This document shows positions 21,878-61,966 of a stretch of DNA of 64,000 bases, piece by piece (position 1 is the first letter of the stretch; the number at the start of each line of letters is the position of its first letter). Both the position numbers and the translations under genes were made by a program. Origin of the DNA: Paramacrobiotus metropolitanus. Taxonomy: Eukaryota; Tardigrada; Eutardigrada; Parachela; Macrobiotidae. The stretch is taken from the NCBI RefSeq assembly GCF_019649055.1, contig NW_026570221.1, forward strand, positions 3,968,001-4,032,000, read 5' to 3'. The notes under the pieces are model-generated. The model worked only from the letters and a program-made list of their open reading frames with translations. It had not been told where the DNA came from and ran no database searches.

Positions 21878-21956
21878 TAGGAAGAGAATGTACTGGAAAG
21901 GGGGAAGGCTTGCTCCACTAGAAAAAATATAATTGCCGCTTTCGGTTGTGACACCC

Positions 21957-28670: not shown

Positions 28671-28800
28671 GGTGTTGTTCAACGACGGCTGATGCAAGGA
28701 GAGTCTTCTGCGTAGCGGTTGTTCAGCCGGAGAGAAGAAAACGAAAATTCAAGTAACTGTACTGACAAAAATTCACTTCTCTAGAGTGTAATAAAGCCGT

Positions 28801-28979
28801 TTTTATAACAGAATTCAGCAGACAAGTGCCAGTTTTGAAGTGTGTACAAGGAAAAAGGAATGGTTCTCTAAATGTGATTAGCAGAATTCGCTGAAGAGCG
28901 TAAATGTGCTGATACAGACTTTTCTTAGAGGCACCGGACGTCGTTCGTGACCACTTCACCTGACGTCCTGACAAGTGGT
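28801..28979 (-). promoter_or_regulatory. TATA box and expanded palindrome of copy F
   Basis: TATAAAA on the minus strand at 28807-28801. ACCACTT (28950-28956) and AAGTGGT (28973-28979) are separated by 16 nt instead of 7-8; a short duplication (TGACGTCCTGACA) widened the spacer. This copy may bind the factor differently. Confidence 0.5.
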
Positions 28980-29420
28980 TTAGGTTCTGACACAATGCGT
29001 GTGAGTATGCGAGATGGCTGGCATTAGAATAATTATTATTTAGCGTTAGATTATTTAGAGCACCTTTGTTGGATTATAGAGACTGGCCCAGCATGCTAAT
29101 TGTGACGCTACTAAAAATATTATGAAAAACTGCTTTGATCGAGCCGACCATAACAACGGTTTAAAATGTTTTTAAAAGTCGAATAATATGTTGTTTGGCA
29201 GCAAAGTGTTTTTATGGATAATAAATATCGAGTAGTTTTTTTAATTTATTTGAAGGATATCGTAGATGCAGAACTCAGTAGGGATGATCACGAAAAACCG
29301 TATCTTTGCGAGTGACCGGTATGGAATCACTGCTGTCGGTAGATTTCTAACCGGCTTATTTGCAAGTGGGCTTACATACATATGTCGAACTCGTATATGG
29401 TCAAGCTGTTTTTTGTATAG

Positions 29421-38894: not shown

Positions 38895-39173
38895 TGTGAC
38901 GCTAGCGCTTCTCTGATTGGTCGGCTACTGCCGTTCATTGTGTTCACTGCTGCGCAGTGTATTAGTGTTGTCGAGAGCAGATGGAATTTGGCTCTCTGAG
39001 TGTGATGAACGTCAGTGTGTTTTGATCCTTGATCGAGAACGCTAATAAAGTGTATAACGTAGACTGGATATCGTGCGTTGTGCATTTATTCCCCAAAACG
39101 TCACGTTCTACACTACACGGAGTCCTGTCAGTCTGGGCTTCCGTCCTGGACTCTTTCACAGTCCACGGTTATA
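38895..39173 (+). repeat. 5' LTR
   Basis: Starts TGTGACGC and ends GGTTATA, without the usual CA end. Contains AATAAA at 39044-39049. Identical to the 3' LTR except for one extra T in GCTAGCGC near its start, so insertion was recent. Confidence 0.92.
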
Positions 39174-39185
39174 TGGTAGCAGAGC
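39174..39185 (+). promoter_or_regulatory. primer-binding site, initiator-Met tRNA
   Basis: TGGTAGCAGAGC directly follows the LTR and matches 11 of 12 bases of the complement of the 3' end of animal initiator-Met tRNA. It primes minus-strand DNA synthesis. Confidence 0.8.
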
Positions 39186-40418
39186 CGTGAACAGACGGTT
39201 TCTGAGTTTTTCATCTGTTTGGCGAACGGCCACGATCATCTGTTTGGCGAACGGCCATATTGATCTGGATCACATCGATCTCATTCTACCAGTAAGGCAC
39301 TGGTTTCCTCATCTGAAGCAAGGCGCGCTCATCTATCGGATTGCCAGCACCAAAGGCAGCACTGACTAGAGAGTCTCCTGTAGGAGAACTCGTCGTGCAC
39401 ATCGAAGTCAGACGGTAGACGGCTGCGGTGCAAGACCTCTCCTGTTGGAGAACTTGTACTGTTTCCTTTGCTAGGCAGCGGGCACCTCTTGTTTGGGTCA
39501 AGGCTGTCGGGCACAAGAGCCGAAATGCCACGAGTTGGCAGCACCGAATGAGGTGCCAAGAGATCAGTTTTGCGCTCCACCAAATTGGCTGTAGAGCGAC
39601 CTGCTGGTAGGCTTGACAAGCCCAGCAGAAGGCAGATAAGGTCGGACAGGAAGGCGCCATAACCGTGCGGAATACGGCTGCGCGGGATCGGAGCTGGAGA
39701 AGTAGATCATCTGGATCATCTTTTTGTGGAATCGGACCGGTAGACGGGTAAAATACGTTATTAATTATTGGATTGGTTGAGGCGTAAAAAGCGAAATTCG
39801 TATTGGTCCGTATTGAGCTGAGCTAGACGTAGGCGTAGCTTTTGCACACGACGCGCAAGTCTGGCCGTCGACCTGTGACGTCAGGCAGGTCAGAAAATTT
39901 TAACGGGCACACGTGATTGGTCAGTTAAACGAACTCCGATTGGTCGAAATTTTTAATGGTAAAATCGATCTCCAACGATCTCATAACGATCTCCACAGCA
40001 GTTAAATCGAACTTTTCTTATTGTTAATGATCTTAATTCAGTTAAAGGAAGCCGTTTTTAATTGAATTGAGTTGACCGAAAAGTGACCATCTCCGAGATT
40101 GATCAGATCGAGATCATCAGTGACCTTTGAGATCAGATCAGATCAGATCAGATAGTGACCTTTGTCGATGAGCTGAGATCATCTAATTGAACGGGATATG
40201 AACCCCAAACGATCTTTTCAACAGTTTTATTGATATTAGCAGCTGAACGAGATCATTTTTGAGGCAAACCTCTCGATCTTCTTGTTGAAAAAGTGACCTT
40301 TAAAACCGAACTTGATCGAATCTGAGCAGCTGAAAAGTGATCACAGGGACTTAAAACGATCTCATTATAACGTGTGTGTGAGCAAAATCAACAGGTGCGT
40401 CACAGTTATCCGAACACA
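39186..40418 (+). other. untranslated leader with duplicated hairpins
   Basis: A 22-bp segment (TCATCTGTTTGGCGAACGGC..) is repeated at 39211 and 39236. Two short hairpins of one design, TCTCCTGTAGGAGA (39374-39387) and TCTCCTGTTGGAGA (39438-39451), each followed by ACT(C/T)GT, are candidates for packaging or dimerisation signals. A GATCA pentamer run lies at about 40135-40152. GAGCTAGACGTAGGCGTAG (39821-39839) resembles motifs before ORF3 and ORF4. CAACAG|GTGCGT at 40394/40395 is a possible splice donor just above the gag ATG. Confidence 0.5.
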
Positions 40419-43400
40419 ATGGACAAAGAAGCCATTGAACCGACATCTAACAGTAGTCAGGGGAGCCGTAGCTCTTACGGATCACAGCAAGGCGCACATA
40501 ATCCGTATAAGAAAGATCTGTACCCGTACTCACGTCCAGTTGAGCATGAGAGGAATACCCGAGCACCAAAAGTCCCCGTGAAGAAGGATTCACGTGGGTC
40601 GGAAGCGACATACCAGAAGGCACTCGAAGCAGTGTCCGCTCAGGAAAGCTCCAGCGATGATCTGAAACGATCTTCCGCATCTGCGACGGGAAGCAGTGAG
40701 GTGAACCGGGAGGTCGCCAAAAAGGGGACGAGCTCGGAACGAGCAACGGAAATGGATCCGACATCACAAGAGCACGTAACAGTCCAGGATAAGAAGGAAA
40801 ACCTGGCTGAAACCGATCTTAACGAGCACTCAAAGATCGCATCTGACGATCTTGATGAACTCAAACTGGATGAGCTCACATTGGGAGATGAAACTGGAAC
40901 CGAGGATCTCTTCGAGAGCCCAATGGCATCTGATGAGATAATGTCCAATCGCGGGAACGAAGAATCGTACTTCACAGATGATGAGATGACATTGAATATG
41001 TCGTTTAAAACCGCGATGAAGGAAGCTGATCGAGCTCAGGGAATGACACCCTACGAGGACATCCCCGAAAGTCTGATTGAACGGAATCAGACAGGGAAGA
41101 TCGTCAATGTACGATCTCCGTCTCCGAACAGTCCCACCTTTAATCTGAGAAGACGTGTCAAAGAGTTGGAAATCTCACTGGAGGAAAAGGGAGGCCAAGC
41201 CCTCCAAAAGAAACAGGAATATCAAAATCGATTGGGATCTCTCGCAGCTCGTATCTACGAGTTGGAACAACAGCAGGGCTATTGGAGAACATGGCAACGG
41301 AATGGAAAGTCAGATACGAACGCCAAAAAGAGATCGCGGAAGACAACTTGAAAGTCGCCGATGACAGAGAGATGGAAGGATACATAGCTGTGAACGAACT
41401 TAATGAGAGCATGTCCGAAGAGACAGCCGAAAGGTCACGGCTTATAGCTGAATTGAAGGATCAATGTGATGAACTCCGTAAAACGGCAGATGAAGCTGAA
41501 GCGAAACGAAACGAATACGCGAATAATATGGCCGAAATGACTAAACGGCTATCAGTGGTGAACAAGGACATGTTTAAGCTCAGAAATGATCTGAAAGTAC
41601 GTGATGAGAACATCGAAACCCTTCAAAAAGAGTCAGCAGATCATCAGAAACGAGCTGATGATGCTCTTAGAGTGGCACAAGATCTGAGAGATCTTTTAGC
41701 CACCGAAGGCAAGCGACTCAATGATAACATCAAAAAGGTCACAGAAGAGAATAAGCAGCTTAAAGAAGCTGGTAAAAAAGCGGCCGAAGGGGGCCAAAGA
41801 TGGGAAGATGAAGCACGACGATTAGACACGAAGGTGACAAAAGTCGAACTGGAGAGCAAAGAACATCAGAAAAAGATCCTTCAGTTGACAGATGAGAATA
41901 TAAAACTCAACACGGATATGATCGGTATGACACAGACAGCAATGACCAGGGAGGATGAAGTTACCCAATCGAGGAATCAACTGAAATCTGCAGCTGATGC
42001 ATATGCGCAACTCGAACAGCAAATGAACCAGCTGATTGAACAGATCCAACAGAGGGAAACAGATGAAAAGGAGTTGAACGAGGAAACGATTCAGCGGCAG
42101 AACTTTGCGCACAAGCTCAAACAGGAGCGAGACCAGCTGAAAAAGGAGAATGAGCAGCTCAACCTTCGAATCAGACGTCTCGAAGATGAGAATAAAGGCT
42201 TACAAGTAACGAATAAACACAGGGAAGAACTACTCATGCAAAAAGGAAGTGCAAAGAGAGATACTGCCGATACGCCCCCGCCCAGCTACAGTAAAGCACA
42301 AGAAGCGGGTGGGAGCTTCCACTTCGAGATGCCGCTACGAACGGGTGGCGGCACAGGAAGCTTCAAAGTGGACAAAGATGGGGAAACCTCGGATAACAGA
42401 AATCCGTCGGGTAGTCGCCAACCTCATATGAGCTCAGACGACCCGTCACAGTTCCAACAGCCGATCGAAACCGTGGTCAAAGATGACGCAAATCGCGATG
42501 CACGATCTCCCCGACACGAACATGACGGCAGATATTTCGGGGATTATCGAAATGAACGAAATGACAGAAACGAACGCGATCAACGAAACGATCGAAACGA
42601 AGACCGCAATACAAGAGAGTTCAACAGGTCCATCAGAAATATGGGCCGCAAAACCGATCTTGCGACCTTCGACGGCAACCGCGACGCGGTAAACGGATGG
42701 ATCAGGCTGGTGAAAGAAACGCAACGGACATATGATCTGACAGATGATCAGATGCTGATCGATATCGCCAGTGCCGTCAGAGGACCAGCGAAGATCTGGT
42801 TCGACGGAGAAAGAGATATTGAGGAGGCCGAAGAAGAAGTATATACAGTTACAGAATGGCTGAACAAGTTCAAAGATGAGTTCGGAGATCGTAATGAGGA
42901 AGTCCTCGGCTTACGCGAAGCCATGAATAGGAAATTCAGACCCGGAAAAGAAACACTTGATCAATTTTATCAAGCGATGATGAAATTTAAGGCGAAGAAG
43001 GCCATCAGTGAATTACAGGCAGTTGCGTTCCTGATTGACGGATGTAGAAGTGACAACGATCTCTATAAGGCGCTGAAAACGAAGGGGTTCAAGACGCCTA
43101 CAGAGATCAAGGACTTCTTCCGATCTTGGGCAGCTGGCGAAGACAAATATAAGGTTGTCGAAGGCCAACGCAATCAACCGAATTACGTGACCGTCCGCTC
43201 GGGCCAAGTTGAGATGACACAGAGACAATATGCGGCCTCACCTTCCCAAGTGGAATATCAAACGAGATCGTCAACTCCGACTCACAAGGAGATGACTTTC
43301 ATCGACAGCCAGACTGGGCAGCCGATCTCGTACGCCATGGTCGCCGCGATACAAGCGCAGGCACAGGCAAGACCAGCGGCTCCGGCTAATGTGATGCCGT

Positions 43401-44098
43401 GTCCCCTGAAGGGAGGGGTGCCCCAACAACAAGGAAGGCCCAACTATGGAAACGGAAACGGAAACTGGAACGGTGGCCAACGAAATGGCAACTTCAACCG
43501 AAATCAGGGGCAGGGCAACTTCCAACAGAACAACCGACAAGGGAACTACCAGCAGAATCGAGGCAATTATCAGCCGCAGCAGGGTTCCCGTACAGAATGG
43601 AAGTTCGGCCAAATTGACGGATGGGTCGCCCAGGGCGTGCAGCTGTGTCAAAATTGTGGATTTGGAAACCACGATGCACGGAACTGCATGTTCGCTGGTA
43701 TGCCGCCACACCGGAACCCAAACTTGTTCGCCACAAGGGAATGGCGACGGTTGCGAGATGCGGGCGGCTGGCGACAAGCTGTAGCGAACGGCTACGACCT
43801 GGTTGCCCGATGGGCCCAGTTTAAACAGCAGAACGGTGGCGGCGCCGACCAAGGAAACGGACAAGGCGGCGGCGGCTACAACGGCGGAGGAAGAGGTGGC
43901 TTACGCGGACGAGGTCGCGGCAATGGGCGCGGCAACTTCGGTAACCGGTATGGAGGCAGCTGGCGCGCCAACAGGAATGATGGTGGCGGCGACCAGAACG
44001 CTGGCGGCGCGAACGGCGCTGCCCAAGGAAACGAAAAGTCCAGCAGCAACAGCAGGTGCTGGATCAGGGAAACGGCCAAGATCAGTAGGCGCCGGTGA
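40419..44098 (+). CDS. Gag: coiled coil, PPxY, capsid, CCHC knuckle, RGG tail (one frameshift)
   Basis: The start ATG at 40419 is in good context (MDKEAIEPTSNSSQG). About 310 codons run to 41351 in one frame; the sequence continues in another frame from about 41278 to 44098, giving some 1,200 residues, two to three times a usual Ty3/gypsy Gag. Order: Ser-rich acidic N-terminus; a long coiled coil (41150-42230; heptad-rich, for example LRKTADEAEAKRNEYANNMA); PPPSY (42275-42289), a late-domain type motif; Arg/Asp/Asn-rich repeats; a Retrotrans_gag capsid-like domain (DGNRDAVNGWIRLVK...KIWFDGERD...FRPGKETLDQF); Gln/Asn-rich linker; a CX2CX4HX4C zinc knuckle (43646-43687); and a Gly/Arg-rich RGG tail. 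The break near 41278 is a single-base shift with no obvious slippery site. Confidence 0.85.
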
Positions 44099-46662
44099 GC
44101 CTGCTGATCTCCCTGAACCGAAACCACCGGATAAAGGAGGAACGCAGAATAGTACTGCGCGATCTCCGCAGAATGGTACTGCGAGAGACATGGCTTATAA
44201 GATGCCATTACATCAGTCAAGGGAGATGGCTCAAAAGATGCCACCACATCAACGAAACGAACTGGTTATCGGGAAACCAGTGCAAGTGGACAAAAGGCCA
44301 CTTCCGCAGAATAGTACTGCGAAGTCACCACAGAATGGTACTGTGAGTGAGATGGCTCAAAAGATGCCACCACAGGTGAGGAAAGGACCACCTGCGCAGA
44401 ATGGAACTGCGAAAACACAGCAGAATGGTACTGCTGGGGATCAGCTGGACAATAAGGGGAGATGCAGCGCCGAAAAGTTAAAAGAACGGCGTGCTCAACG
44501 TAATGAGATCATCCGAAAAGCGAACTTGAAGAAGAAGATGGAACAAAAAGAAGCTGAGGAGCAGCATGCCAAGTTCCGAGAGCATCCGCGTAAACAGGGA
44601 AATGACCTGTCACCATCTTCTGTACCAGTGAGAGATCGTGGAGCAAGTGCTAACGCTAAAAGCGATGACGAAAAGATCGTTGCAAAAGGTCAGGAAAAGG
44701 AACTGACACTGCGAAAAGCGCAGCTTACAGAGAGTGGACGAGCACTACGGACCTCCGATGACTCATTGGATGATTGGATGATGCAGTTACGTTACAACGG
44801 AAGCAAATCTGGGGAAACCTCGTCCCAGTGTTCAACGAGATGGAGTATAAGAAGACACTCGTTGACCAGAAGCGAAATGCTCCTCCAACCGATAAACCGC
44901 CGAATTACGGAGAAAAAGTTCCGTTACAAAAGCTACCAAGTGGAGGATTTTCCATGAAACCAACTGAAAGGTCACGGGACTTAACAGAAGCCCTGCAAAA
45001 AGATCCGAATGACAAGTCACCAACTCGGACAGATGGAATGTCGTCGCAGATCGACCCAACGAAAACTAACAATGAGGTATCTGCGAAGGTGTTAGACTGG
45101 ATGACTCAAAATGGATATGAGATGGTCACATATGAGAGATCACCAGATCGGCTGAAAGACAGCGAGAAAGATGAGCTGGAACGAGCTGACCAGATCACAG
45201 ATGAGGTTATTGAGCATCTGCGTGACAAACCAGATGATGTGACATTGCATCAGACCATCTCCGAGGTGATCAAAGATCATACGGAAGTTGCGAAGGGGCA
45301 ACTAAACGAGGTCGAAAAGATCGTCAACGATGAAAAAGCTGCAAAGGAAAAGGGGTGTGAGATGATGAAAAGCTCAAAGGAAAATGAGAAGAGACAATTT
45401 TATGATATCCGAACTGACGTCCCAAGAGGATCGATCATCTGAGCTCGATACTGAAGAAGAACAACACCTTAACGAACGGGCAGGTGCCTTCTTCAGTAGT
45501 TGATATAGATCCGGGACCTGTATCGCTCATCCCAGTTAAATGTACTGTTCGTACGCTCAAAGTACAAAATGGATCGAAGCACAACTTGCCGAAAAGGATT
45601 GAAGCGTACACACATGAGGTCAAAATTGGCGACATAAAGGTTTTGGCGATGTTAGACACTGGTGCAGAAACATCACTGATCAGCCGACCGTTTTGTGAAA
45701 AGAACGGACTTCATGTTTTACCGCTGCCACCAGATCGATTGGTGAGAATTAACGGAATCAGCGGGGCATCAGGCTTCAACGTGACACATTATTGCGTAGC
45801 ACCGGTGACATTGCGGAAACGGACCAGTCAACACTCCTTCTACGTACGACCGAAAACAGATGATGTACAAGTTTTATTGGGACATGATTTCTTGGCGACG
45901 AAGTTCGTCCTGATCGATAATCATGGGGAGGAGGAAGTTGAAGATGAGCCAAAATCAGCTGTTAAAGTTCAAGCCGGAAAGGTCACCGGACTTGTAAAAG
46001 CAGCTAAAATGGATCAAAAGGCTATCCCAGTACCAGAGGCACCGGGAAAGCAGATAATGAACCAACCAAGGGGAGGTTCACCTGCTCAGCTGTCAATAAT
46101 TGAACAGATGGCAGCCATCCAAAAAGAGATCACCATCCGCCTGGGAAGATCATCAGTTAAACCGAAAGAACGGGCAAACGTCGTTCTCCCAGTACCAGAG
46201 GCACCGGGAACGACGAAAGATGATCAAAAGGGAACGGATAAAGATGTCATCCCAGTACCAGAGGCACCGGGAATGATAGATGAAACTCCGTTAACGATGG
46301 AACAGATCGCAGCCATACAAAAGGAGGCAGCTACTGAAGCGAAACGAGCTCTTGTACCTGGAATGGAGTGGGCAAAGTTAATCCCTGTACCAGAGGCACT
46401 GGGAATAAAAGTTGCCAAAGTTTGGAACGATAAGAAGTTCGAAACGGAACTTGAAGCTCCGAAAACGATGACGGAAGACGAACAGGTACTCCTAAGTGAC
46501 ATACGAGATGGAGCAGTTAAACAGTTGAGAGATCAACGAAATGAAAAACAACCGGAGATCATCGAAATCTCATCTGACAAGACTAAGGGACACCGAATCA
46601 CGGTTTTTGGAACACGGAAATTGACGATAGCAATAACCCGTTCGCTTGTCTCGATAAAATGA
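44030..46662 (+). CDS. protease region: repeat-rich linker and aspartic protease (frameshifted)
   Basis: Coding continues past the gag stop in other frames: about 44035-44800, 44800-45430, 45430-45475, then 45475-46600. The first part has tandem QN[SG]TA..PQNGT and MAQKMPP repeats (44150-44440), then a Lys/Glu-rich stretch. The protease has its active site DTGAETSLIS at 45655 and the flap-side partner LLGHDFL at about 45873, as in retroviral-type pepsin-fold dimers that cut Gag-Pol. Downstream are four copies of [IL]PVPEA[PL]G (46024, 46189, 46249, 46384) separated by alternating Lys/Glu segments. The change of frame at about 44035 falls where a gag/pro frameshift would be expected, but the others do not. 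Confidence 0.8.
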
Positions 46663-48000
46663 CACTGGAAGAACGTATTAGCAGTTGTCATCACGGTTAC
46701 AACGAGAATCCGTGTCGAGTGCAACCTCAATGGAAATGCGAAGAATGTTGTCGAGATGCTCACCAAGATGATCTCACAGACTGGCCAAGGTGCAACGCAG
46801 CAATCGAGGACATGAAAAATCATGTCCAGAAGGAAGTCAAGAGTATTAGCAGGACAAACTCAATGTGGAACCAGCACATCGAGCGCTACCATTGGCAGCG
46901 ATATAAGGAATGGTTATCCTGCGTCCGAAACTTCATCATAACAAGGGGGAGATCATTACTTCATTGGGATAACAGCGTCGACAGCATGATTGCGAACCTA
47001 GGGAGATCAGACCCGAAGGTCAAGCATCTCCGATCGAAACTTGATCGAGAAATAAACGAAGTATTTGATGAAGGAATCATGTGGGAAAATGCTAGGACAG
47101 ACCTATTCTGGGACTTTCGTGTTAATCACCTCTATAAGGGAGAAGGAACAACGATCATTTTCCCGACAGGACTTGGCAAACCAGTATATGAGCTGTTCGA
47201 AATGTTCTATAAGGCGCTAGAGAAGGGAGATGGAAAATCCTTTGAAAAGTATTGGAAAAAGTTGGAAACGGAATTCCCTCCACTGCCAGAGAACGATATA
47301 CTCGAGTTGAAAGTATACCGAAAACGAAGAGAAGCTGGACCAGCTGGATACCCGGTCAAGAAGAAAGTGACTTTTGCACCGGTTCCAGACGGAGCTGAAT
47401 ACCCTCAACGAGGAGATGATAAATGGTGCATGCATGAGATGACTCCTAACAATGAACTCCTCACTGAAGATTTAAATGCAAATTGCGTCTTCATCGGAAC
47501 TAAAAGACCATCGGATATGAAGAAGTTGCAGATGAGGAGACGATCGAAGCAGACGACGAAAGGTCACCAAGAGCTCATGAGATAGCACAGATGCTAACGA
47601 ATCGAGGCGAAATATTGGAAAAGTTCAAAGAGGAGCTCAAAAGGATCTCAGCGGGACAAAAATACCCAGTAACAGAAGCAAAGAAAGACGGAAACGCACC
47701 CGACACTGGTGAGGAAGGTCCACCGGTCGAGAATAGCAGATTGATGAGCTTGGAAGAGATCGATCAACTGGAAGGAACAGCTCCAGATGATCAGAGATCG
47801 AACTCTGATAAACAAAGGTCATCACCGAAAGTGCGAGTAACGCGCAGCCATCCGAGAATCGCAGTAAAATATGGAATAAAAGCAAGAGAAATGGGCAAAC
47901 CTCTGCTCAAAAACCTTAAAGCGAAAAAACTTAGCGATTCTATGGTGACGAAGGTGACCTTTCATCTGAGGAAGATGGAGTTGATGAACGACCGCTTGAT
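46600..48000 (+). CDS. unrecognised Cys/His-containing segment between protease and RT (frameshifted)
   Basis: Frames change at about 46600, 47510 and 47940. The N-terminal part has CHHGYNENPC...KCEECCRDAH...C, a cluster of seven Cys and three His that could bind zinc. Next comes a helical, Trp/Tyr-rich block (MWNQHIERYHWQRYKEWLSC; YKGEGTTIIFPTGLGKPVYE), then acidic, Ser-rich sequence leading into the RT (SDSDSDWTSSSDNSTTSEDS). I know of no domain of this size between protease and RT in ordinary Ty3/gypsy elements. Function unknown; by position it would be released from the Pol polyprotein. Confidence 0.65.
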
Positions 48001-50592
48001 AAGAGCGCTGCAGTTAATGACGAGATTAGCGACTCAGATTCAGATTGGACGAGCTCAAGTGACAACTCAACGACTTCAGAGGACTCAGGTGTAAACGACC
48101 TCTCAGATCAAGAGGATCTGCTCGATCTCGATGAAGATGATGAAGTAGATGAAGAAAAGGAACAGGACATCAAAGTGAGAAGAACGAAGGTGCAAAGGAT
48201 GAAACTGAACAGAGAGACCATTAGAGTCTATAGTGATCAACGGATCCTTTTGAAACCATCCGTCTGCACGCGTGTAAAAGTCGGAATGGGAAGATTCGTA
48301 CCAGCTAAAGAGAAACTGATGTTCGCACCCGTCTTTCAAGTGGAAACTGATGTTCAGCCGTTAGCGGGAGTGACCGATCATAGAGGAAAGCACTTTGATC
48401 TGGTCATTGCTAACCACAGTATTAAACGGCAAGTTGTTAAGAAAGGTCAGTTTCTCGGCTATGTTGAGCCATACGATCATATGGAGAACGTCCAGATTAA
48501 TAGTGGTACAGTAAAAAACGTGCTTTTTGATCCCGAAGTGGACGATCTAACGAAAACCGAGCTGACAAAGATCATCGGGAACTTGAAACTCGGGCCTGAT
48601 CTCACGCAAGAGCAGAAGAACGATGTCTATAATGCATTTTGGGAGTTCTGGAAGGTGCTTCCCACATCAAACAAACCGTATGGAGATGTCAAAGGGATCA
48701 CCCATGTGATCGACACGGGAGATGCGAAACCGGTGAAATGCAATCCCGCCAGAACCAGTTGGACAGGTCGCGAGTTCATAACAAAACATATCGAAGAGAT
48801 GCTGGCGCAGGACGTCATCGAGCCATCAGATGCCGATTGGAGTTTCCCAGTCGTGCTGGCTGCGAAAAAGAACGGTGACGGGACAATGGGCACAAGATTC
48901 TGCGTCAACTACATCATGCTGAATAAGTTAACGAAGAAAAACAATTATCCGCTACCGAGCCCGGATGAGTTACTAGATGCATGTGCAGGCAACAAATATT
49001 ATGGAAAGATGGATCTGCAAAGTGGATTTTGGCAGATACCGATGGCTCCGGAATCGATTAATAAAACGACCTTTGTAACGCAAGATGGCATGTATCGGTT
49101 TAAAAGGATGCCATTTGGAGTCTATAATGGACCTGCAACATTTCAACTGTGTATGGACAGAGTACTATCCAAGGCAAAGCGAAAGGGCTGCGTCTTCGGA
49201 TACATCGATGATGTCATTTTTGCTGGAAAGACTTGCGAAATTTTCATGCAAAATATGAGGAATGTCCTTCAGAGTTTGGTTGAAGCAGGTTTCACCATTA
49301 AACCGACGAAATGTGAATTTGGAATGCGGGAGATGGGATTCCTGGGTCACATACTCAGCGAAAATAAAGTTCGAATGGACCCCGAAAAGATCACCGGAGT
49401 ATCAGAGTTCAAACGACCTCAGACTGAGCGACAGTTGAGATCATTTCTAGGACTGGCGAACTACTATCGGAGGTTCATAGCTGGATACGCACAGCAGACC
49501 TGCCATCTATATGAGCTGCTATGAAACGATAAACATGTGAGAAAAGATTGGACAGAAGTTCACACGAAAGAGTTCGATAACTTGAAAAAGTTGCTGTGTG
49601 AAGGTCCCGTCTTAGCAAAATTTGATCCAGCTAAGCCAACAGTAATCGAATGTGACGCAAGCAAAGAAGGAATTGGAGCAGTACTATCACAAGAAGGTCA
49701 TCCAATTGCCTATGCGAGCCGCGTCCTACATGGAGCTGAACGGAATTACGGTGTAACTGAATGGGAGTGTCTGGCGGTCGTGTTTGCCGTCAGGAAGTTC
49801 AAATCGTATATTGATTACTCCGAGTTCACCGTACGAACAGATGATCAAGCACTGACGAACTTGCTGAGATCAGAAACGAACAAAGTTGGCATGAATCCGC
49901 GACTTACGAGATGGGCGATGGCATTACAAGGTCATCAGTTCAAGATCGAGTACAAACCCGGAAAGTACTGCGATAATGCGGATGCACTATCGAGGGCACC
50001 AATTGAAGGTCCGACATGCCACAATGAAGAATTTTATGAGATCCCAAATTTCGAGGACATTAAAAAAGAGTATGACATAAAAGAACCGGCAGTTGAAGTG
50101 TGGCAACTGTTCGTACAGATGGCCGAAGAGCGAGAAAAGCGAGTAAAAGATGATCCAGCTACGGCGAACGAGCCGGCTGAATCAGCGATCAACGTTAACT
50201 GCGTACGAGCTTTAAACGAATGCCCAATTAAGCTGCTGAGATTTCCTAAAAAGGTGAATAGTCGACATAAACCGCTGCCGCGATGCAAAGTCATCACGGA
50301 CTGGAACGATCTCAGCACCGCAACTATCCGAATCGTCAACATGCAAGGAGATGAAGAAGAGGAAGACGACTCGAACTTACAGCTCCGGAATAAGCAGCTG
50401 AAAGATCCTCACCTTGCAATGATCATCGATGAACTCGAACACTTACCAGATGCTCAAACGAGATCGAAGTTCGAAGTTCATTAGCAGCTGTGGAATGGAA
50501 TCTTGTACAGAATAAAAGACAATAAAGGGAGATTAGAAAGGTCATACGTCGTACCACTGACGATGAGACGAGCGATCATACATGCGCTGCAA
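48000..50592 (+). CDS. reverse transcriptase and RNase H (two in-frame stops)
   Basis: RT copies the element's RNA into DNA; RNase H removes the RNA strand. RT signatures: MDLQSGFWQIPM with the first catalytic Asp near 49011; MPFGVYNGPATFQ; YIDD at 49201-49212; GFLGHIL; and a thumb ending LRSFLGLANYYRRFI. RNase H: CDASKEGIGAVLSQ, WECLAVVFAVRKF, RTDDQALTNLL, NADALSR, the usual D-E-D-D set. A TGA at 49522-49524 separates RT from RNase H in the same frame, and a TAG at 50482-50484 follows an acidic connector of about 150 residues. Coding then continues to a frameshift at about 50592. The YIDD box and domain order are typical Ty3/gypsy. Confidence 0.9.
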
Positions 50593-52338: not shown

Positions 52339-52368
52339 AATTAATGGGCGTTATGACATTACGAACGG

Positions 52369-52436
52369 GAGCTAGGAAGGCGTAAAAGTTAACCGTTGTA
52401 AACTGGCTAACAGATATCGTTTCATTGTTATAGCAG
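52369..52436 (+). promoter_or_regulatory. shared motif and splice-acceptor-like site before ORF3
   Basis: GAGCTAGGAAGGCGTAAAAG at 52369-52388 reappears (split in two) before ORF4. At 52416-52436 a pyrimidine-rich stretch ends in TATAGCAG, ten bases above the ORF3 ATG, as expected for a 3' splice site of a subgenomic mRNA. Splicing is inferred, not shown. Confidence 0.4.
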
Positions 52437-52446
52437 GTAAAAGTTA

Positions 52447-55400
52447 ATGGAAAGACTGGAAAGGCAGAATTCAGAGAATTCTGACACGGAGAGTATCGGA
52501 AATCCGTTAAAAACACCTACGCCGATAAGAATGGAAGGCGATCACGGTCAAGGCACTTATTACCCGGATGAGTCCACATCGTCTGCAGGAACGGCGCAGA
52601 ACGAACCGGGACCGGGCAACCAACCGATCTATGTAGCTGGTGTTCAGGCATACGTACCGTACCAGGATCCAACAAGTTATTACAATACAAAGAATTGGGT
52701 GACCCACGGCCATCTGGCCGGACCAATATCCGATACAAAACGATCCTTTCCAACCGTTTCCTGGAACGCAGAATCCAACAATGTATGGATCAGTACAGGT
52801 GCCTATGGGACCACCACCACCCCCACGACAAAACGCACCGAATTTTCCGACAGGACATGGTGGATTTGGCGGGATGTCATCTGCACCCGTCCGACATGGT
52901 GGATTCGGCGGAAGACCATCGACACCCGTCAGACATCACGGATTCGGAGGTCTGATGTCGACACCAGTTCGACATAGTGGGATAATCGCCGGATCACCGC
53001 CGGGATCAGTGCGCGGCGGAAGGGCGCCAGCACCAGAGTCGTTATCTTTTCCGTCATTATTCCCAGGCGACTGGACTGAGACAGCGTCTACGGGGTCATT
53101 CGGCGTCCTTAGGGCACCTCGTCCACCTCACCGATTTGAGCGACGATCTCCGAACAAAAGAGGCGGAAGATCGCAACATGGAAATCTCGGTTCACCTCGA
53201 CCACCAGGGATGTTGCCCCCACTAGGTCCTCAGTTGGAAACGATGAAAATAAGTCCCCCAGGTTCACCCTCCAGATACGTACCGAGATTGGCGGTGAATG
53301 TAAGCGAGGATGATGAACAGCTTAATATGATCGTGGGAGACTCTGAGGAGATCACAGAAGATGATCGGAAGGCGATCCACAACTTCAACCGGTTGTGCCG
53401 AGACTACTACAGAATACACGAGAGGGTTAACGACGAACAGCTCTTCTATGGGTATATGATAGAGCAGATGGCTGTAACCGATCCGGGGCACTTAGCGCTG
53501 AAAGAGCGAAAGGAAAAGGTGCAGGAAGCACGAAAAGAGATCGGTATCAAAGTTGCGACAATGAAAACGTACCATCAGGCGCTGATAAATAGACCATGGC
53601 CAAAGATGATCGAACGGATCTTGAGATGGATTGATAAGTTCCCAGAAGAAGCTGTACAATCTGAAGCCGTTGTAGCTGGTTCATCACAGATGCAACCTAC
53701 AGCGAGCAGCACATCGAAACCCGGTACACCCACCATGAAATCAGTAGAGGAGATGACCGATGCGGACTTAAAAGAACAGAAAAGACGAATCGAAGAAGCG
53801 ATTGAGCAACGAGCGAGATCACGGGAGAGCTCGACAGCGGACTCATCTCGCGGTAGTACTAAACGAAACAGATCACAGACGACAAGCCCCAAATCGGCAG
53901 AAACGGGTCATCAGGCTAAAAAGCCTTCGGCGAGTAAGGAACCGCCGAAAGCACAAGAGCAGCCGATACCAGTGAAGCCTACGGCGAGTAAGGAACCGCC
54001 GAAAGTACAAGAGAAACCGGTACCAGCGAAAACCACGGTGAGCAAGGAATCGCCGAAGACGCAAGAGACATCGGTAATACCAGTGAAACCCTCGGTGAGT
54101 AAGGAACCACCGAAGGAGCAGATACCTGCAAGAACTCACCCGTTAACTCCGATGATCGCACCGAGAGTTCGCGCATATACAGTGACATACTCAAAATCGG
54201 AAGGACCCCCGCACAAAGTTACGGCCCAGATTGTCGATAAAGTCACGAACGAGGAGATTCCCTCATATCAACGAACAGCACCGGCGGAAATAAGAAACCA
54301 GATCTCTAAACAGTCGAGAGATGAAGTGCTGGAGGCGTTGACCAAGATCGAACGAGAGGAAGACCGTACAAACCCGCGAATCCTCATTCAGATGCTAAGA
54401 CAACTGATCACGCCAATAGCGGTGAAAGAGAAAGCATGGATCTGTATACGAGTGGGAACGTACGAGGTCCACTTTGTGTACATGTACGCAACCGACGGGG
54501 AGATGCTGTCAGTTGATAGAAATCAGCTGAAAGAGGGGATCGAACCAGATGGTCAAAGTAAGCCGAAGGAGGCATACGATACGACCTACCTGTACCAGGA
54601 TATGACCTGCAGGATATTTAAATTGGGACTTCATTTTGCGATTGGACCACCAAGGGTGATGATCACAGAAATCGTCGACCTTATATCGGGAGATCCCGTT
54701 CCATTCGCACGCTGGTTCACATCGAAAGAAGAGAAGGAATTTGTCAATATGGAGAACGAGAAAGCATTGGCGGAACTGTATAACATGATGCCGCCCGAGC
54801 TGAAAAAAAATGTCAAAGCCAACAGAGAGGGAGTTTTGAACATCATGAGTCACCGAGCTGTCGCAGATGGAGCTTACATCAGGGTGACAACCACTTCAAC
54901 TGAGGAGGGCCATCTCCGTACACTGGTTTACACACCGCAATATCATCTGGTTTATGAGATGGATCCACCAGCGAAACATTTTTCAGCGGCGGCCGAAATC
55001 CACGAGATTTATTGCAAACTTAAGCAGGCAGAAGAAGAGGAAGGTCATGCCGGCGAAGTCGAAGAGCAGATGGAAGCTGAAGATGCTCCATCGGGAGATG
55101 ATGCTCCACAAGGAGAAAATGCTCCTCAGGTCGAACCAGTTGATGCAAATAACCCAAGACGATCGTTGCAACGGGCGATTGCGATTATTCAAGGAGCCGA
55201 TCACAAGGAATGCAACGATGTGAACTGTGATCGATGTTACCCACCGGGGGAATCTGAAGAAGAAGATGACGAAGAGACGGTTCAAGAAGACTCGGAGGAG
55301 GACAAACCAGCACCGAGATCATCTAAAGATGAATCCAGAACGAAATCATCCAAAGAAGAACCGAAACCGAGGTCATCTAAAGCAGATACAAAGTCAAAGG

Positions 55401-57540
55401 AATCGGAAAAGCCAGAGAAGACGGTCGTTAAACCTGAGAAAACGGAAACAAAGAAGTCAAAAGGGAAATCTCAGAGAAATCAGAAACAGAAAGGGGGAAA
55501 AAGGAAGGACCAATCCCCATCTGATGACGAAGAGATCGTTAGCGAGCAATCAGATGAGGACGATGTCGCCGAGATCGACAAAAGTCTGAGATCTTCAATG
55601 ACAACGCCGAAAAAGCATGTGATACAGTCAGCAACATCGACACCGGAAGATAAACCGAAGCCACCGACTATCGCGATAAAGAGAGCGATTAAAGTGGGGC
55701 AGATCATGTCGGCGTCAACTCAAAAAGAACGCAGAGAGAAATTACAACAAAAAAAAGGGAAACGTGAGACATCCCGCGAGTCGACGACAGCATCAGAGTC
55801 GAGTCGTCCAAGCACATCGACGATCGCTTCGAAGCTTAACATCTCAGCTCGAGCTACGCGAAGTCAGACGGGAGAGCCGAAAGTGGCACCCAATAGCTTG
55901 GAAGCGACTCTAGAAAAACAGAAACAAATGGCGTTGGAGAAACAGAAGAAGAGCGCAAAGAAGAAAAGTGTTAAGAAGAAGTCTAAACCTGAAGCGGTCC
56001 AACGCATTGATGCTGTCGGGTTGGCACAGTATACCAGGAGACAGGGCGATAGCGATCTGGAATACTCTGAACCGGAGGACGATAAGCCATTTCCTGATTT
56101 TGAAGAATTGGGAGATGATGATGACACGTTGACACCGGATGACCTTATCGCAGCTACAAATTATATTATGTCTACGTTCCGCACACGAGGTGACACCTCG
56201 GTGACGCTGAGATTTCGTCAACGCGCAAAAACTTGGCTAAATGATAACAATCGTCGCCTTACTCCTTCAAAGTTGGATACGATAATTGATTTCGCCCTGA
56301 ATACGGGTAGAGTGGTTAAGAAACACCTCGACTGGCGTTGCAAAACGAAACTGATTAGAACAGGCGGAATCGATAAAACGCTGTTCGAGGAACATGCTAA
56401 CAAGAGAAGACAGATCGAGGTGGCTATAACAGGCTTGCGGAGCCCGGTTGGATCTACTCGACACCGTATTAGCCAATATATGAATGGATTACGGCAAGGT
56501 GGAATGGGCATGATCGCCGAGATAGAGGCGGGAAATGAGACAGCGTTGACAAACATGGTCCAAGAAGGTAAAGTCCTCACCACCTACGCGTACGAGGGGT
56601 CTCCAATTCGATACACCTTGTTGGGGTTCATTCCGGAGGATTTACATGATTACTTCAATTTCTCCGGCAGCGAAGTGATGGAAAAACTTCCAATTCCTCA
56701 GCGGAATGATCCGGAAACTCCCCTGTTAAACGTGATGCTTCAAAAGGGAGATCAGAAGAGAGCTGCCAGAGAAAAGATCGAGGCAGATAAGTTGAAGAAA
56801 TCGTTAACACCGAAAGGTATTATGGAATTAGACTACGAGTCAGATAATGAACCGGATGAGACTTCAACGTCAGGACAGGCGGCTACAACGAACTTAAGAA
56901 CATCTTGGCGAGACAGCCATTCCAGACGATGACTCAAAGAGACCTCAGATCGACAATATGTGCCAACCGAGTCCTGAAATTATCTGGCGTGAGCTTCGAC
57001 AGGATGACCAAGAGAGCCTACAAAGAAGGAAAATTGGGCCTTTGTTACTCGGATACCAACCGATGGTCTTATTACCTGCCGCAGCCAATGCTACCTCCAC
57101 GACTGAAGATGGAATTGAAGTTTTGGAAAATCGCCATTACCGACGCGGCGATGCCGAGACTTGGCGGATCGATGGGAGTCACATGAGACGATCTATCAAA
57201 CTTTTTCGCCGTGAATTATGAGCTGGGAATTTACAATATTGAAAGTGATCGGGAGGTGATTAAATTGGCAGTCGAAAGCCTAATCGTTGATAAACTGTTG
57301 GAAATCAAAAATGGTCGCATCTTCTCAAAATCCGAGGAGCTTCCGGAAGATACTCCAGAGAAGGAGATCGTGGATTCAGCGAAGATTCCGGCATCTCAGG
57401 AAGTTGCCTTGGAATCGCAACAGCCGGCACCGGCCGAGCTCAAAACCAGCGATACCGAAACAAAATCGGCAGAAATTGAAGATACTGTGCCAGCGGCGAC
57501 TGAAACAGCAGAGTCGGTTGACACATCAGTTCAAGAGTGA
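52447..57540 (+). CDS. ORF3: ~1,700-codon accessory protein, unrecognised
   Basis: ATG at 52447 (MERLERQNSENSD); frameshifts at about 52810 and 56885 and an in-frame TGA at 57184-57186; end at 57540. It follows integrase, where some elements carry env, but I see no signal peptide or membrane segment, so it does not look like an envelope. Order: Pro/Gly-rich N-terminus with tandem HGGFGG..S[TA]PVR units (52850-52975); helical segment (LCRDYYRIHERVNDEQLFYG); four KEPPK.QE.P.PVKP repeats (53930-54120); two related ~125-residue domains (about 54160-54530 and 54600-54960); HKECNDVNCDRC; a long Lys/Ser/Glu-rich region with KKKSVKKKSK (nuclear-signal-like); and a folded-looking C-terminal domain (from about 56100, TFRTRGDTSVTLRFRQRAKTW). 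Possibly a nucleic-acid-binding or particle protein; that is inference. Confidence 0.7.
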
Positions 57541-57928
57541 ATAAGAGATGCGTGATGTGCGGTCAGGAAGGTCCACCGCATATCACAGATGAACGGCATC
57601 ATATCAGTTTAACGAAGGCGAAAAAGTCGAAATAACCGAGATGAAAAACGTTAAAATAGATGGTCAACGCAACTCAGCGAATACGCTAAATGAGATGAGA
57701 AGATGAGATAACCACATCAGTCAAATAGGCGAATGAGCTTAGAACTGACAACATGGAAAGGTCACCATGTTACAGTGTTAAAAATGTCATCATGAGCTAG
57801 GAAGGTCTCAGCTCAGTACGGAAATAGCCTAACTTAGGCGTAAAAGATGATAAGAATGATCGTGAGATGGTTATGAGATGATGAGATGATATTGTGATAC
57901 TTTTTGACATTGCAGACTTCGACAAGAG
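57541..57928 (+). promoter_or_regulatory. ORF3-ORF4 spacer with shared motif and acceptor-like site
   Basis: No ORF. GAGCTAGGAAGG at 57794-57805 and GGCGTAAAAG at 57837-57846 repeat the motif found before ORF3. A GATGAGAT-rich stretch (57860-57890) leads to TACTTTTTGACATTGCAG ending at 57915, thirteen bases before the ORF4 ATG: a strong 3' splice-site look. Confidence 0.45.
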
Positions 57929-59696
57929 ATGGCTCAAAAAGGTCCAGCCAAACCGAACAGTCAAGCGGCACCATTGGCAGTGAGAAGTCAAGCAACACCG
58001 GCAGCCGCGAGAAACCAGGCAGCACCTGCGCCTGTAAGGAACCAAGCTGGATCTGCAAATGCGCGAAGTCAAGCTGCACCTCCGAAAAGTCAAGCAGCTG
58101 TACCTGCGAAACGTCCTGTGGACTCCCAAGTTGATCCGTTTACGGGCTATGATCCTAAATGTCCGGACTGTATCAGAAATAATAAGGTCGAGAAAGGAGA
58201 TTGCTTGCTGGTACTGCATATTCAAAGAACCAAATCGAACTTTGGTGGCATATACTGAAGCCACCCGGGGAAATAAGGACGTTTTCCGAACCATTACATC
58301 TGCAGGTGCATGGAAGACGATTCCTCCAGGACAAAAGATGCTCATTGAAGATCGCTACCGTCAAGCGATCCAGAATGGCGAAATCGGTTGGGATGCCACT
58401 TACGAACCTCCACAAGATGATCAGTGCGATGCTTACCGTAAAAAGTTTGAGGCAGATCAAGCACGAATGATGGAGGAGAAACGACAGAAGGATCTGGCAG
58501 ATGAGATGACAGCCAGTAGGAAACGTGCTGAACAACGGGCAGCCCAGGAGCACCGAGAAGGGTCGGTGCAGGGCGAAGCCCCTATTCCTGTGGCCCAACT
58601 GAACGCAGATGAAGCGGTGGCTAGGATAAAGGTCACCCTCCTCCAGATCGACGAGCTGATTAAAGAACCGTCGAAGATTCGGGCCAGCTTACTCGAGGTC
58701 CTAGTACGTGAAAAGATGAGGTTGGAGAAAGGCGAACCACCTAAACCGGATACCAAATTGTTGATTGAAAAGATGACTGAAGAAGCTCGAAAGACACATG
58801 AGATGGAGCGCGATGTTATGAAAGCATTTCAAAATTGCAGACGAGATGAAGGTTTCCAACGACCTCGATCACCAGCGAGGAGTGAACATCAGCGATCACG
58901 GGAATATTCACGCGAACGGAACTACGACTCTCGAAACGAACGGTCGAGAGAGTATTCTCGAGAACAAACTCGTGACTATCATAACGAAAGAGATGATAGA
59001 TCACGCTCGCGCGACTACGACTACCGCGGCGGCAGATCATGGGTGCGACATGGAGATCAGGTAATCGAGACCAGCGCACATCGTTGCCATGAACCAGTCG
59101 ACACACGACGAGATGAACCTCGTCAAGACGAAATGCGTCGAGATGGACCACGTCAACAGATACCGATGGGAGTTGGTTTCTGTCATCCAAAAGTCAGGGG
59201 GTTCACACCAGAACGACGAGAAGGAACCTTAAAGGGACCCGTCAGAAGTCGCAGCCCATACGATAAGGGATGGCAGGATGACATGAATTACTTCGCGGGT
59301 TTCCCGATCAATCATAAAAGGACTTCGAGTGGAGAACGCGACGATACTCCGCCGAAACAGCCAAAGGTGAAATCAGTGGTTCACATGGTAGAACCATTAG
59401 TCATTACGATGGACGATGATGAACCAATGGAACTATCATCTGAAAGCATCGTCCACAAACGGAATGTTGTATTGGACCGTGATCTCGAACCGTCGACATC
59501 AGCCAGTACGGCACAACGTGAGCAGGAAGGCCCTCACGAATCAGATAACTGCCATCAACGACGAAATCAACCGGAGCCTGATCGACGACGTGAACCAGAT
59601 GGTCGTCAGAGGGGTAATACCACCTCCAGGTTCGATAACGCTCAAAGACGCTTGATCAGTAAAACTTATGATATGGACGACGTTGAAACTCAATGA
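57929..59696 (+). CDS. ORF4: Cys-box and Arg/Ser-rich protein, unrecognised (one frameshift)
   Basis: ATG at 57929 (MAQKGPAKPNSQAAP). The first part has tandem A[AR][RP][NS]QA repeats, then CPDCIRNNK...C near 58160-58210. A frameshift at about 58205 moves the rest into another frame, where a further Cys pair (CWYC) completes a possible four-Cys zinc site. Next comes IFKEPNRTLVAYTEATRGNK, a helical Lys/Glu/Arg region (58440-58800), an RS/RD-rich block (SREYSRERNYDSRNERSREY; 58880-59040) like those of RNA-binding splicing factors, and a disordered tail. It ends with TGA at 59694-59696, overlapping the ORF5 ATG. An RNA-binding role is plausible but not shown. Confidence 0.6.
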
Positions 59697-60800
59697 GCAG
59701 AGATTTGTCGATACCTCGGATTGGAGATCGAGTCGGAGCAGTCAGTAATGATACATACGCAGCTCCACCATCTCCGCGAATTTCTGAGGGATTCTGGATA
59801 TGAAGATGAGCTCAGAGAGAGGAGACTCGGCAGTCTAGAGATCACTACCGAATCGGCGAAAACGTGTTATGCACCGATCCGGCAGTGCGGTCTACCAAGT
59901 TTGTTGGACCTGAGTCTACTGGAAGTCCCATTGGACACGATCGATAAAACGGAGTGGACACAGTTCCACTACCAAGAGATCAAGGAGCGGCGTGAATATG
60001 TAGCACAATTTGTGCTACGCAACGTGAATCCGGCATTCAAAGTACTAGCAGCGCGAGCAGGCATTGGATTGACAGTGGACCCTACCGACTACAAGTCGAG
60101 AACGTTTGGTCAGAAGGTCTTCGCCGCAAGATTGGGACACTACCCGACACAGAATCAGTTGTTTTCGGACTTTACGAAAGGGAAAGTTCCGCCTGTGTTC
60201 CGAGAAAAGGCTGCTAACTTAGGCATGCCATCGAAACATCAGGAGATCCTGCGCAAAGCGAATGAAGGACTGGCGATCTGCAAAAAACGATTCGATGATT
60301 GTAATCTTCACGAAACGCACGAAGCATAATACCAGGAATGGATCAACCGTATTCGCGACACCATGGAAACGCCGTATATCGATCCGAAAGATCGAGTCCA
60401 TGAGTATATAGAGGATCACCTGGTATGGAAAGGACCTCAGCAGTCGACATCGGCAAAAGTTCCGAATACACCGGGCAGACGAGCTGCTCGAAACCAGAAC
60501 ATCCGGAATCAGTACGAAGATGTCAGACAACAATTAGCTGAAGATCCTCAGAATCGGAATTTGCAACGTGAGGAAGATGACGCACGACATCGATTGAACG
60601 CGATCAAACGTTCGCGACAAGGAAAAGGTCGTGGTCCACGTCACATCGTCTTACGAGTTCAAGCGGATGAGGACGTGCCAGCTGGATCAGCAGAACCGGT
60701 TGATCGGACATCTGATAAAAACCAGCCGGGCCCAACTCGAAAACGTCCACCGCGAGACAGAGGCGACGGAGATGGGTCGAATGAGATGATGGATCAGTAA
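59693..60800 (+). CDS. ORF5: basic accessory protein, unrecognised (frameshift and stop)
   Basis: The ATG at 59693 overlaps the ORF4 stop as ATGA. The opening MSRDLSIPRIGDRVGAVSND reads well, then a frameshift at about 59800 is needed. The conserved-looking core (LSLLEVPLDTIDKTEWTQFH; RTFGQKVFAARLGHYPTQNQ) runs to a TAA at 60327-60329, after which the same frame continues (YQEWINRIRDTMETPYIDPK) to 60800. The C-terminus is very basic (RRAARNQNIRNQ; RSRQGKGRGPRHIV), as in nucleic-acid-binding proteins. An alternative reading extends the core frame upstream through the ORF4 stop. No homologue recognised. Confidence 0.5.
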
Positions 60801-61028
60801 AACTGATTTAATAGGAGTTGCTACGGCTTATGTCGGCATCCCAATGTATCGACTCATCTAGTTAAAGAGTAGCTACGGTACACTTGGCCGGCTCTCTGAA
60901 TAAGGTTGAAGAGATGGATTGTGCGACGAGATGAACTTTATCAGGGAGGCAAGCTGAGAGGAGCTTGAAAGCCGACGAAAAATGGCTACGTTCCTCCATG
61001 ACCTTTGCTGAACGCAGTTTGACAGACG
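60801..61028 (+). other. spacer with a partial repeat of the ORF6 start region
   Basis: GATGAACTTTATCAGGGAGG and CTCCATGACCTT (60933-61005) resemble GATGATCTTACCAGGGAGG and CTCCATGACTTA (61050-61113), so the beginning of ORF6 appears to be duplicated here in broken form. Confidence 0.4.
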
Positions 61029-61371
61029 ATGTCGCACATCCATGATCAGAAAGATGATCTTACCAGGGAGGAAGCGAACTTTACTTGTCTATATGACGTC
61101 CCTCCATGACTTAACCGGATCTCATTATGAAGTCCTACAATTGATACGCACCTATTCCAAAGATGAAGAAGCAGTATTCCTAAGACGTACATTCGATACG
61201 CACTTTATTCCTAAAAAAGCGGATGTGATGAAAGTCGCACAAAGATGCGCAAGATGCTCAAGCGGAGCGAAGTTGCTCAAGATGGAGCGGAATGGGCCAA
61301 AGATGCGGAAAACGGTGGACAGGACCTGTGACCTATGCCAGTCAATGGAGGATCCTAGTCTACATGTTTGA
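61029..61371 (+). CDS. ORF6: small double-CxxC protein, unrecognised
   Basis: Opening frame MSHIHDQKDDLTREEANFTC from an ATG at 61029, then a single-base shift at about 61105 into the frame of TGSHYEVLQLIRTYSKDEEA, ending with TGA at 61371. The C-terminal third has CARC and CDLC about 30 residues apart, with Lys/Arg between, a likely four-Cys zinc site. About 110 residues. Last ORF before the 3' LTR, where small regulatory proteins sit in some retroviruses; role unknown. Confidence 0.45.
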
Positions 61372-61688
61372 TTAACTGCTTTTGTTGATCTGTTTTTACT
61401 GTTGATCTGTTTATGTTGATATGGAATAGTATTTTTCTACAGATCTCTTTATTTTCACATTGTGCATTTGGAATCATGTGATAAAATGGATTAAGAGAGT
61501 CTGATGTTTTTTTTTACGAGAGCGCGCACAGACCACCGATTGGAGCGGAACGGAATGGATTTAGCTTCGACGGAGCTCAGCCTCCCACCCAGAGGCATGT
61601 GAGGCGATGGCTCCCTTGCGTCCACCTTCGTGACGCTACTGGAATGACGGGAGTGCTTCGTTGCACTACCCCGTGGGGAATTGCCGTC
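61372..61688 (+). other. 3' untranslated region of the retrotransposon
   Basis: T-rich and then GC-rich; no ORF. The base run before the 3' LTR (CCCCGTGGGGAATTGCCGTC) is not a clean polypurine tract, which is unusual for an LTR element. Confidence 0.5.
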
Positions 61689-61966
61689 TGTGACGCAGCG
61701 CTTCTCTGATTGGTCGGCTACTGCCGTTCATTGTGTTCACTGCTGCGCAGTGTATTAGTGTTGTCGAGAGCAGATGGAATTTGGCTCTCTGAGTGTGATG
61801 AACGTCAGTGTGTTTTGATCCTTGATCGAGAACGCTAATAAAGTGTATAACGTAGACTGGATATCGTGCGTTGTGCATTTATTCCCCAAAACGTCACGTT
61901 CTACACTACACGGAGTCCTGTCAGTCTGGGCTTCCGTCCTGGACTCTTTCACAGTCCACGGTTATA
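61689..61966 (+). repeat. 3' LTR
   Basis: 278 bp, from TGTGACGCAGCGC to GGTTATA; one base shorter than the 5' LTR and otherwise identical. AATAAA lies at about 61837. Confidence 0.92.

Follow-up and report, generated by a model that had tools for sequence, protein, structure and literature searches.

The window analysed here is a stretch of 64,000 nucleotides (C1:3968001-4032000) of the 169.8-Mb genome of the tardigrade Paramacrobiotus metropolitanus, reported as 170 Mb (PMC11191345). Between 38895 and 61966 it holds a Ty3/gypsy-type long terminal repeat (LTR) retrotransposon in which gag and pol are followed by two further large genes, here called open reading frames (ORFs) 3 and 4. On balance, it probably represents a giant, recently active Ty3/gypsy lineage of this species with gag, pol, ORF3 and ORF4, expressed and functioning by the scheme proposed below. 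Its features, all on the forward strand, are:

38895..39173, +, 5' LTR without its first 91 bp (full length ~369 bp, by comparison with other copies)
39174..39189, +, primer binding site TGGTAGCAGAG
39174..40418, +, 5' leader, GATC-rich
40392..40400, +, candidate splice donor CAG^GTGCGT with the cut behind 40394, lying 24 nt upstream of the gag ATG
40419..44098, +, gag, frameshifted in the window copy, encoding a coiled coil and a single CCHC knuckle (at 43646)
44099..52098, +, pol, with several stops and frameshifts in the window copy; the gag-pol border is approximate
45616-45897, +, protease in pol (PF13975)
48874-49356, +, reverse transcriptase (RT) in pol (RVT_1)
49549-49929, +, RNase H in pol
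50588-50728, +, integrase zinc domain (H2C2)
50822-51064, +, integrase core (rve)
52372..52393, +, spacer motif CTAGGAAGGCGTAAAAG
52420..52436, +, candidate splice acceptor of ORF3, TTTCATTGTTATAGCAG
52447..57537, +, ORF3, its first frame open to 56929, followed by a second frame with one stop
57797..57846, +, spacer motif CTAGGAAGG ... GGCGTAAAAG
57902..57915, +, candidate splice acceptor of ORF4, ...TTGACATTGCAG, with one off-pattern base behind the AG
57929..60800, +, ORF4 (ORF4-ORF6 of the preliminary description), broken in the window copy by one frameshift near 58.2 kb and by two stops within the frame
60801..61597, +, 3' untranslated region
61598..61966, +, 3' LTR, full length, 369 bp

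The preliminary description had recognised a Ty3/gypsy element with near-identical LTRs, a primer binding site, protease, RT, RNase H and integrase, and this is borne out by the repeats, the CCHC knuckle and the Pfam matches, which follow one another in the protease-RT-RNase H-integrase order of Ty3/gypsy (Metaviridae): PF13975 protease (1.4e-8), RVT_1 (5.8e-27), RNase H (2.6e-33), H2C2 (3.3e-15) and rve (1.9e-10). The closest solved RT by sequence is that of Ty3 (4ol8, E 6.3e-42), and the protease has the motif LDTGA at 45655. Paired LTRs, a primer binding site and a short target duplication, all hallmarks of Ty3/gypsy elements, are present in the family; TGGTAGCAGAG, which we take to be of the initiator tRNA-Met type, stands behind the LTR at 13 of 13 5' LTR loci. 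No target duplication was found at the LTR flanks of the window copy.

The direct repeats of the window copy (38904-39173 and 61697-61966) share 270 identical nucleotides, and 278 of 279 columns agree when the comparison is begun at 38895. In ten of the 11 other LTR pairs the alignment covers 369-371 bp, beginning with TGTGAGGCG and ending with GGTKATA, the exception being the C24 pair, whose 3' LTR is cut; because the LTRs of other copies start with TGTGAGGCG and have this length, the start of the window's 3' LTR is placed at 61598. The LTR ends first proposed must be moved accordingly: the LTR is really ~369 bp long, and the 5' LTR of the window copy misses its first 91 bp. At 12 of the 13 loci with an LTR and primer binding site, the 14 nt upstream of the repeat are approximately the same as those in front of the 3' repeat of the window, which is itself the one exception.

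The search for other copies in the same genome, proposed at the outset as a check, returned eight further loci (on C1, C6, C24, C46, C76, C115, C167 and C196) with LTR pairs 23.4-24.0 kb apart, and with ORF3 and ORF4 matches between the LTRs at all eight. A perfect 4-bp target duplication flanks 8 of the 11 other pairs (GTAA, CTGG, GTGC, TGCT, CGTC, GACC, AGAG, CTAA); of the rest, one has three of the four bases, one has none, and C24 is not judgeable. Taken together, these eight loci, the duplications and the presence of ORF3 and ORF4 inside them identify a single mobile unit of ~24 kb. Another possibility is that two elements were joined by an assembly artefact, as the shortened 5' LTR and missing target duplication of the window copy might suggest, but the recurrence of the same 23-24 kb unit on other contigs, several times with flanking 4-bp duplications, leaves this idea scarcely credible.

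Gag encodes a long coiled coil and the CCHC knuckle CQNCGFGNHDARNC (at 43646), with no Pfam gag match in the scan of the window element; its frame is open over ~1,230-1,280 amino acids (aa) in many other copies, ~1,250 aa being typical. Open pol frames reach 3,124 aa elsewhere, the typical plan being ~3,000 aa, of which ~1,000 aa between protease and RT (45900-48870) contain no domain recognised in Pfam scans; in another copy this interval includes a Cys-rich stretch. Long stop-to-stop ORFs continue past pol on the same strand. The preliminary description counted four accessory ORFs there (ORF3-ORF6), but these are really two genes: 58038-59696, 59697-60329 and 60330-60800 lie in one common frame broken by two stops, so that the former ORF4-ORF6 are fragments of one broken gene, which is a single open frame of ~910-1,010 aa in other copies. 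ORF3 is cut at 1,409 aa in the window, where it has one frameshift and one stop, and is found as open frames of 1,633-1,848 aa at other loci. Together the four genes encode ~7,000 aa, which corresponds to ~21 kb of coding DNA.

The copies fall into several families. Family 1, that of the window, and family 2 are ~85% identical in RT and ~45% in ORF4, with a subfamily at 60% in ORF4 between them; in a third family (P0011, P0012) pol is 48-51% identical. Among 39 family-1 ORF3 matches, only those of the window, C167, C44 and C97 span nearly the whole query without a stop, while in family 2 full-length, stop-free matches number 11 of 39 for ORF3 and 23 of 55 for ORF4.

ORF3 and ORF4 are almost certainly genes of the element, since many copies have them at a near-fixed distance behind RT and both show purifying selection. 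Among the matches listed, to which all the counts of this paragraph refer, 49 of 82 RT matches have ORF3 (35) or ORF4 (38) downstream on the same strand, and none of the 82 has an opposite-strand ORF4 within 14 kb. The distance from RT is 2.97-3.43 kb for ORF3 in 28 of 35 cases and 8.2-9.8 kb for ORF4 in 34 of 38, after exclusion of second gene pieces (2 of 81 and 5 of 55 ORF4 rows; 9 of 39 and 9 of 39 ORF3 rows); ORF4 follows within 6 kb in 46 of 60 ORF3 rows, a set that still includes some genes as two pieces or from both queries.

Within the close family, pairwise ratios of nonsynonymous to synonymous change (dN/dS) are 0.09-0.16 for ORF4, 0.15-0.23 for ORF3 and 0.04-0.21 for the RT region (L059 ORF4 rows are not counted, and the window ORF4 row stops at its first stop). 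For the conserved domains, close-family values are 0.03-0.20, and a distant pair of ORF3 sequences reaches up to 0.44; the other two reading frames of the same alignments give 0.85-4.5, mostly above 1. Many distant pairs yield no ratio because dS is saturated. This selection must have acted across many rounds of transposition. The earlier claim that the 9 kb behind pol are element coding sequence and not a nested insertion is thus sustained by the 49 of 82 listed RT matches and by purifying selection, and no match of ORF3-ORF6 to a second transposon emerged from the searches made. A reading of the two genes as captures from the host, or as a nested second transposon confined to one copy, is contradicted as far as nesting goes and very improbable overall: it would have to accommodate many loci, one strand and a near-fixed spacing as well as purifying selection, and the searches made returned no match to another element or to a protein of another species. 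ORF3 taken alone may nevertheless be an acquisition, since a sister-family copy described below has none behind pol.

The spacers around these genes had been described as carrying motifs shared with the gag-pol side, and this holds: GGYGTAAAA occurs three times in the element (39781, 52379 and 57837), once in the leader and once in each of the two spacers, and the rest of the window lacks it on both strands. A strict match is present in only 3 of 12 other leaders, however, so that its role in the leader is doubtful and it is ruled out as a leader constant. The GATC-rich composition said to be common to gag-pol and the accessory ORFs was confirmed in the window copy (242 GATC seen against 151 expected in the element; 98 against 104 in the left flank) but not as a mark shared across the lineage, for which it is ruled out: the excess is absent from the family-2 stretch tested (0.79), which makes it a poor argument for the unity of the element. 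GATC is most conspicuous in the leader (39174-40419; 26 against 7.4 expected, 3.5x), where the excess could represent a repeated cis motif.

Of 13 leaders, 12 carry the candidate splice donor CAG^GTGCGT 24 nt upstream of the gag ATG; in L032 the sequence at this place is different. On the acceptor side, TTTCATTNTTAYAG directly precedes the ORF3 ATG at 10 sites and ATTGCAGATT precedes the ORF4 ATG at 10 sites, family 2 being included in both cases. Misses include the ORF4 site of the window (one base off) and that of C167 (lost), and L060, of the 60% subfamily, strictly fits neither pattern.

Alongside the long form there are shorter copies containing only gag and pol. On C17, C35 and C6 (C6:366k), family-1 LTR pairs are 11.9-15.3 kb apart and 369/370 to 370/370 identical; these short forms are recent. 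Gag matches are present in all three, with some stops (C35), and RT matches in C35 and C6. Their sequence corresponds to that of the window up to about 52393 (less far in C6), then to a ~217-bp piece of ORF3, and resumes at 60838, just behind the ORF4 stop. The preliminary description had named copies wholly without 52.4-61.4 kb as evidence against element genes in this interval: copies without ~52.4-60.8 kb do exist, but they retain the ~217-bp ORF3 piece between the breaks, and for this reason they are deletion derivatives rather than gene-free ancestors. Retrotransposition of spliced RNA was considered as their origin and rejected, the left break of C17 and C35 lying inside the predicted intron, upstream of the acceptor, with no splice consensus.

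Family 2 has short copies of similar construction. Three loci were sampled (C9, C143 and C54) from 33 RT matches without a listed ORF3 or ORF4. In C9 and C143, sequence running from pol to just before ORF3 is followed by a diverged C-terminal piece of ORF3 (54% over 161 aa in C9, 43% over 89 aa in C143) and then by the region behind ORF4; C54 has a weak match only to the same ORF3 piece (E 0.004). The gag (1,277 aa) and pol (3,059 aa) of C9 are stop-free within the match. From these comparisons, the loss of ORF3 and ORF4 appears to have happened separately in families 1 and 2, at nearly the same break points and with the same part of ORF3 kept, because the family-1 remnant is 88% identical to the family-1 ORF3 of C167. 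Neither acceptor pattern occurs in the short-form stretches read, a weaker TTAG being left in one family-2 copy.

A tree of RT-RNase H sequences, into which 113 of the 120 listed proteins were taken, has 115 rows. The five from P. metropolitanus cluster together (SH-aLRT 100) and are set off by a stem of 1.6 changes per site; Burro, Cer1 and Ogre are not knowingly among the rows of this tree. Some indication of the order of gene gain comes from L074, a single sister-family copy from C37 with a pol 71% identical to that of P0011. ORF3 was not found in the 2.5 kb read behind its pol. An ORF there encodes a product that resembles ORF4 in its C-terminal part (29% over 252 aa, with E 6.7e-18 when this stretch is taken alone; hhalign 98.8%, E 5.6e-17). 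This ORF4-type gene is preceded by the acceptor-like CCTTGACAG before its ATG and is split between overlapping frames. As L074 keeps an ORF4 homologue without ORF3 behind pol, ORF4 may be the older accessory gene and ORF3 the newcomer, to the extent that one copy can indicate.

The ORF4 product has an N-terminal CxxC...CxxC, invariant in all five aligned rows, an Arg/Ser/Glu-rich middle and a conserved helical C-terminal domain. The cysteines match the pattern of the C4 cluster of CERV and Rev-like regulators, and would form a putative zinc site. The C-terminal region of ORF3 may be winged-helix-like, a fold defined by a helix, a strand, two helices and two strands, and ORF3 is probably a nucleic-acid- or protein-binding partner. 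Relatives were confined to P. metropolitanus in the searches made (five for ORF4); four ORF3/ORF4 domain profiles had no significant match in PDB (best E 0.22), none was confirmed for the ORF4 C-terminal domain in IMG/VR, and the predicted ORF4 model was too poor for a structure search.

Assuming the splice sites are used, one genomic RNA from the LTR would serve gag and pol, and ORF3 and ORF4 would each be translated from a spliced RNA in which the leader donor (40394) is linked to the acceptor at 52436 or 57915, respectively. ORF4 could then be a nuclear protein binding unspliced element RNA and securing its export or packaging, like CERV of Cer1 or retroviral Rev, with ORF3 as a partner that has the possible winged-helix-like region. 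This RNA-export role, proposed by analogy from the C4 motif, the Arg/Ser/Glu-rich tract and the lack of a membrane segment, is a tentative proposal, somewhat less than an even prospect. The RNA of short copies, having lost both acceptor motifs, may need no export factor; with this loss, and with ORF3/ORF4-type proteins acting in trans, gag-pol-only derivatives could spread beside the long form.

A second possibility is that the two genes have structural or assembly roles, ORF4 as a second nucleoprotein and ORF3 as a large scaffold, in packaging a 24-kb RNA two to three times the usual cargo. Both proteins are large and charged with conserved domains, and short copies lacking both also move, as if only the long RNA needed help. 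But no capsid or nucleoprotein match rose above the cut-off, the acceptor motif before each ORF suggests regulated expression rather than a polyprotein, and L074 keeps an ORF4-type gene without ORF3 behind pol; we consider such roles rather improbable. Less probable again is that ORF3 and ORF4 replace env in spread between cells or animals, the gag-pol-only copies being purely intracellular descendants, for which env-less endogenous retroviruses offer a parallel. Hydropathy revealed no membrane segment in four ORF3/ORF4 proteins (maximum 19-residue value 1.56), which speaks against an Env-like function, and among the scanned ORFs no envelope or fusion family of Pfam was matched.

Giant Ty3/gypsy elements with additional genes have been described before, among them Burro and Ogre, and at about 23-24 kb the tardigrade element ranks with the larger ones. 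Burro of planarians (PMC6431247) is likewise an animal Ty3/gypsy-like element with an internal region above 20 kb and excess coding capacity, but exceeds 30 kb with its LTRs (interior up to 25 kb) and carries MATH, BIR, ankyrin, BCL2 and Env-like domains mostly inside a ~4,900-aa polyprotein; the tardigrade element instead has two separate genes behind pol, 369-bp LTRs and none of the Burro domains found (no Pfam match to MATH, BIR, ankyrin or BCL2 in the ORFs scanned). The plant elements Ogre and Retand (PMC6431247, PMC11963269) are also very long, with extra ORFs of unknown function. Ogre owes its size mostly to LTRs of 1.9-6.5 kb, with an interior of 11-13 kb, as against tardigrade LTRs of 369-371 bp, and the pol-LTR region of Retand is 2.9-6.6 kb with antisense ORFs, as against ~9.5 kb with sense ORFs here. 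Errantivirus-type elements have a membrane-anchored Env behind pol, which was not found here.

A further comparison is with Cer1 of C. elegans (PMC10309623), where a lineage-specific, non-Env ORF, CERV, also lies between pol and the 3' LTR. CERV is spliced and has a possible C4-type cysteine cluster; ORF4 has candidate splice sites and C4. CERV is 517 aa long with its first three exons in the gag frame, whereas ORF4 has ~910-1,010 aa and its own ATG behind an acceptor. The two are likened by description only, and the excerpted Cer1 account contains no counterpart of ORF3.

New within the searches made are the tardigrade lineage, the short LTRs, the two large accessory genes under selection and the paired long and short forms; no description of the ORF3 and ORF4 protein families was found in the open PMC subset, including the excerpts of PMC11071193 and PMC11191345. 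Transcription, reverse transcription and packaging have traditionally been thought to limit retrotransposons to near 10 kb (PMC6431247), yet in this tardigrade, whose genome is compact (170 Mb), a short-LTR unit of ~24 kb spreads, and the long and short forms side by side in two families are a natural test of the role of the extra genes and of the limit on element size. A possible, though on present evidence doubtful, history is that a separate animal Ty3/gypsy lineage, its coding sequence amounting to ~21 kb, developed an RNA regulatory system of its own, in which an old ORF4 managed unspliced RNA, ORF3 was later inserted between pol and ORF4, and gag-pol-only offshoots repeatedly shed both genes together with the acceptors that had made them necessary.

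Elsewhere in the window, an inverted repeat at 20831-21879, with 383-nt arms 98% complementary and 283 nt apart, could be a foldback or MITE-like (miniature inverted-repeat transposable element) sequence. A 9-bp minisatellite of TTAGGTTTC type occupies 35283-35617; TTAGGTTTC-like sequence also adjoins an LTR on C1 (L011 flank) and sits behind a family-2 short copy (L071, 1033-1302). ORFs of ~170 aa that form a repeated family lie at 79-12763 and 28042-29042; several copies have conserved flanks, and those scanned have no Pfam match. Protein kinase exons lie at 25599-26745.
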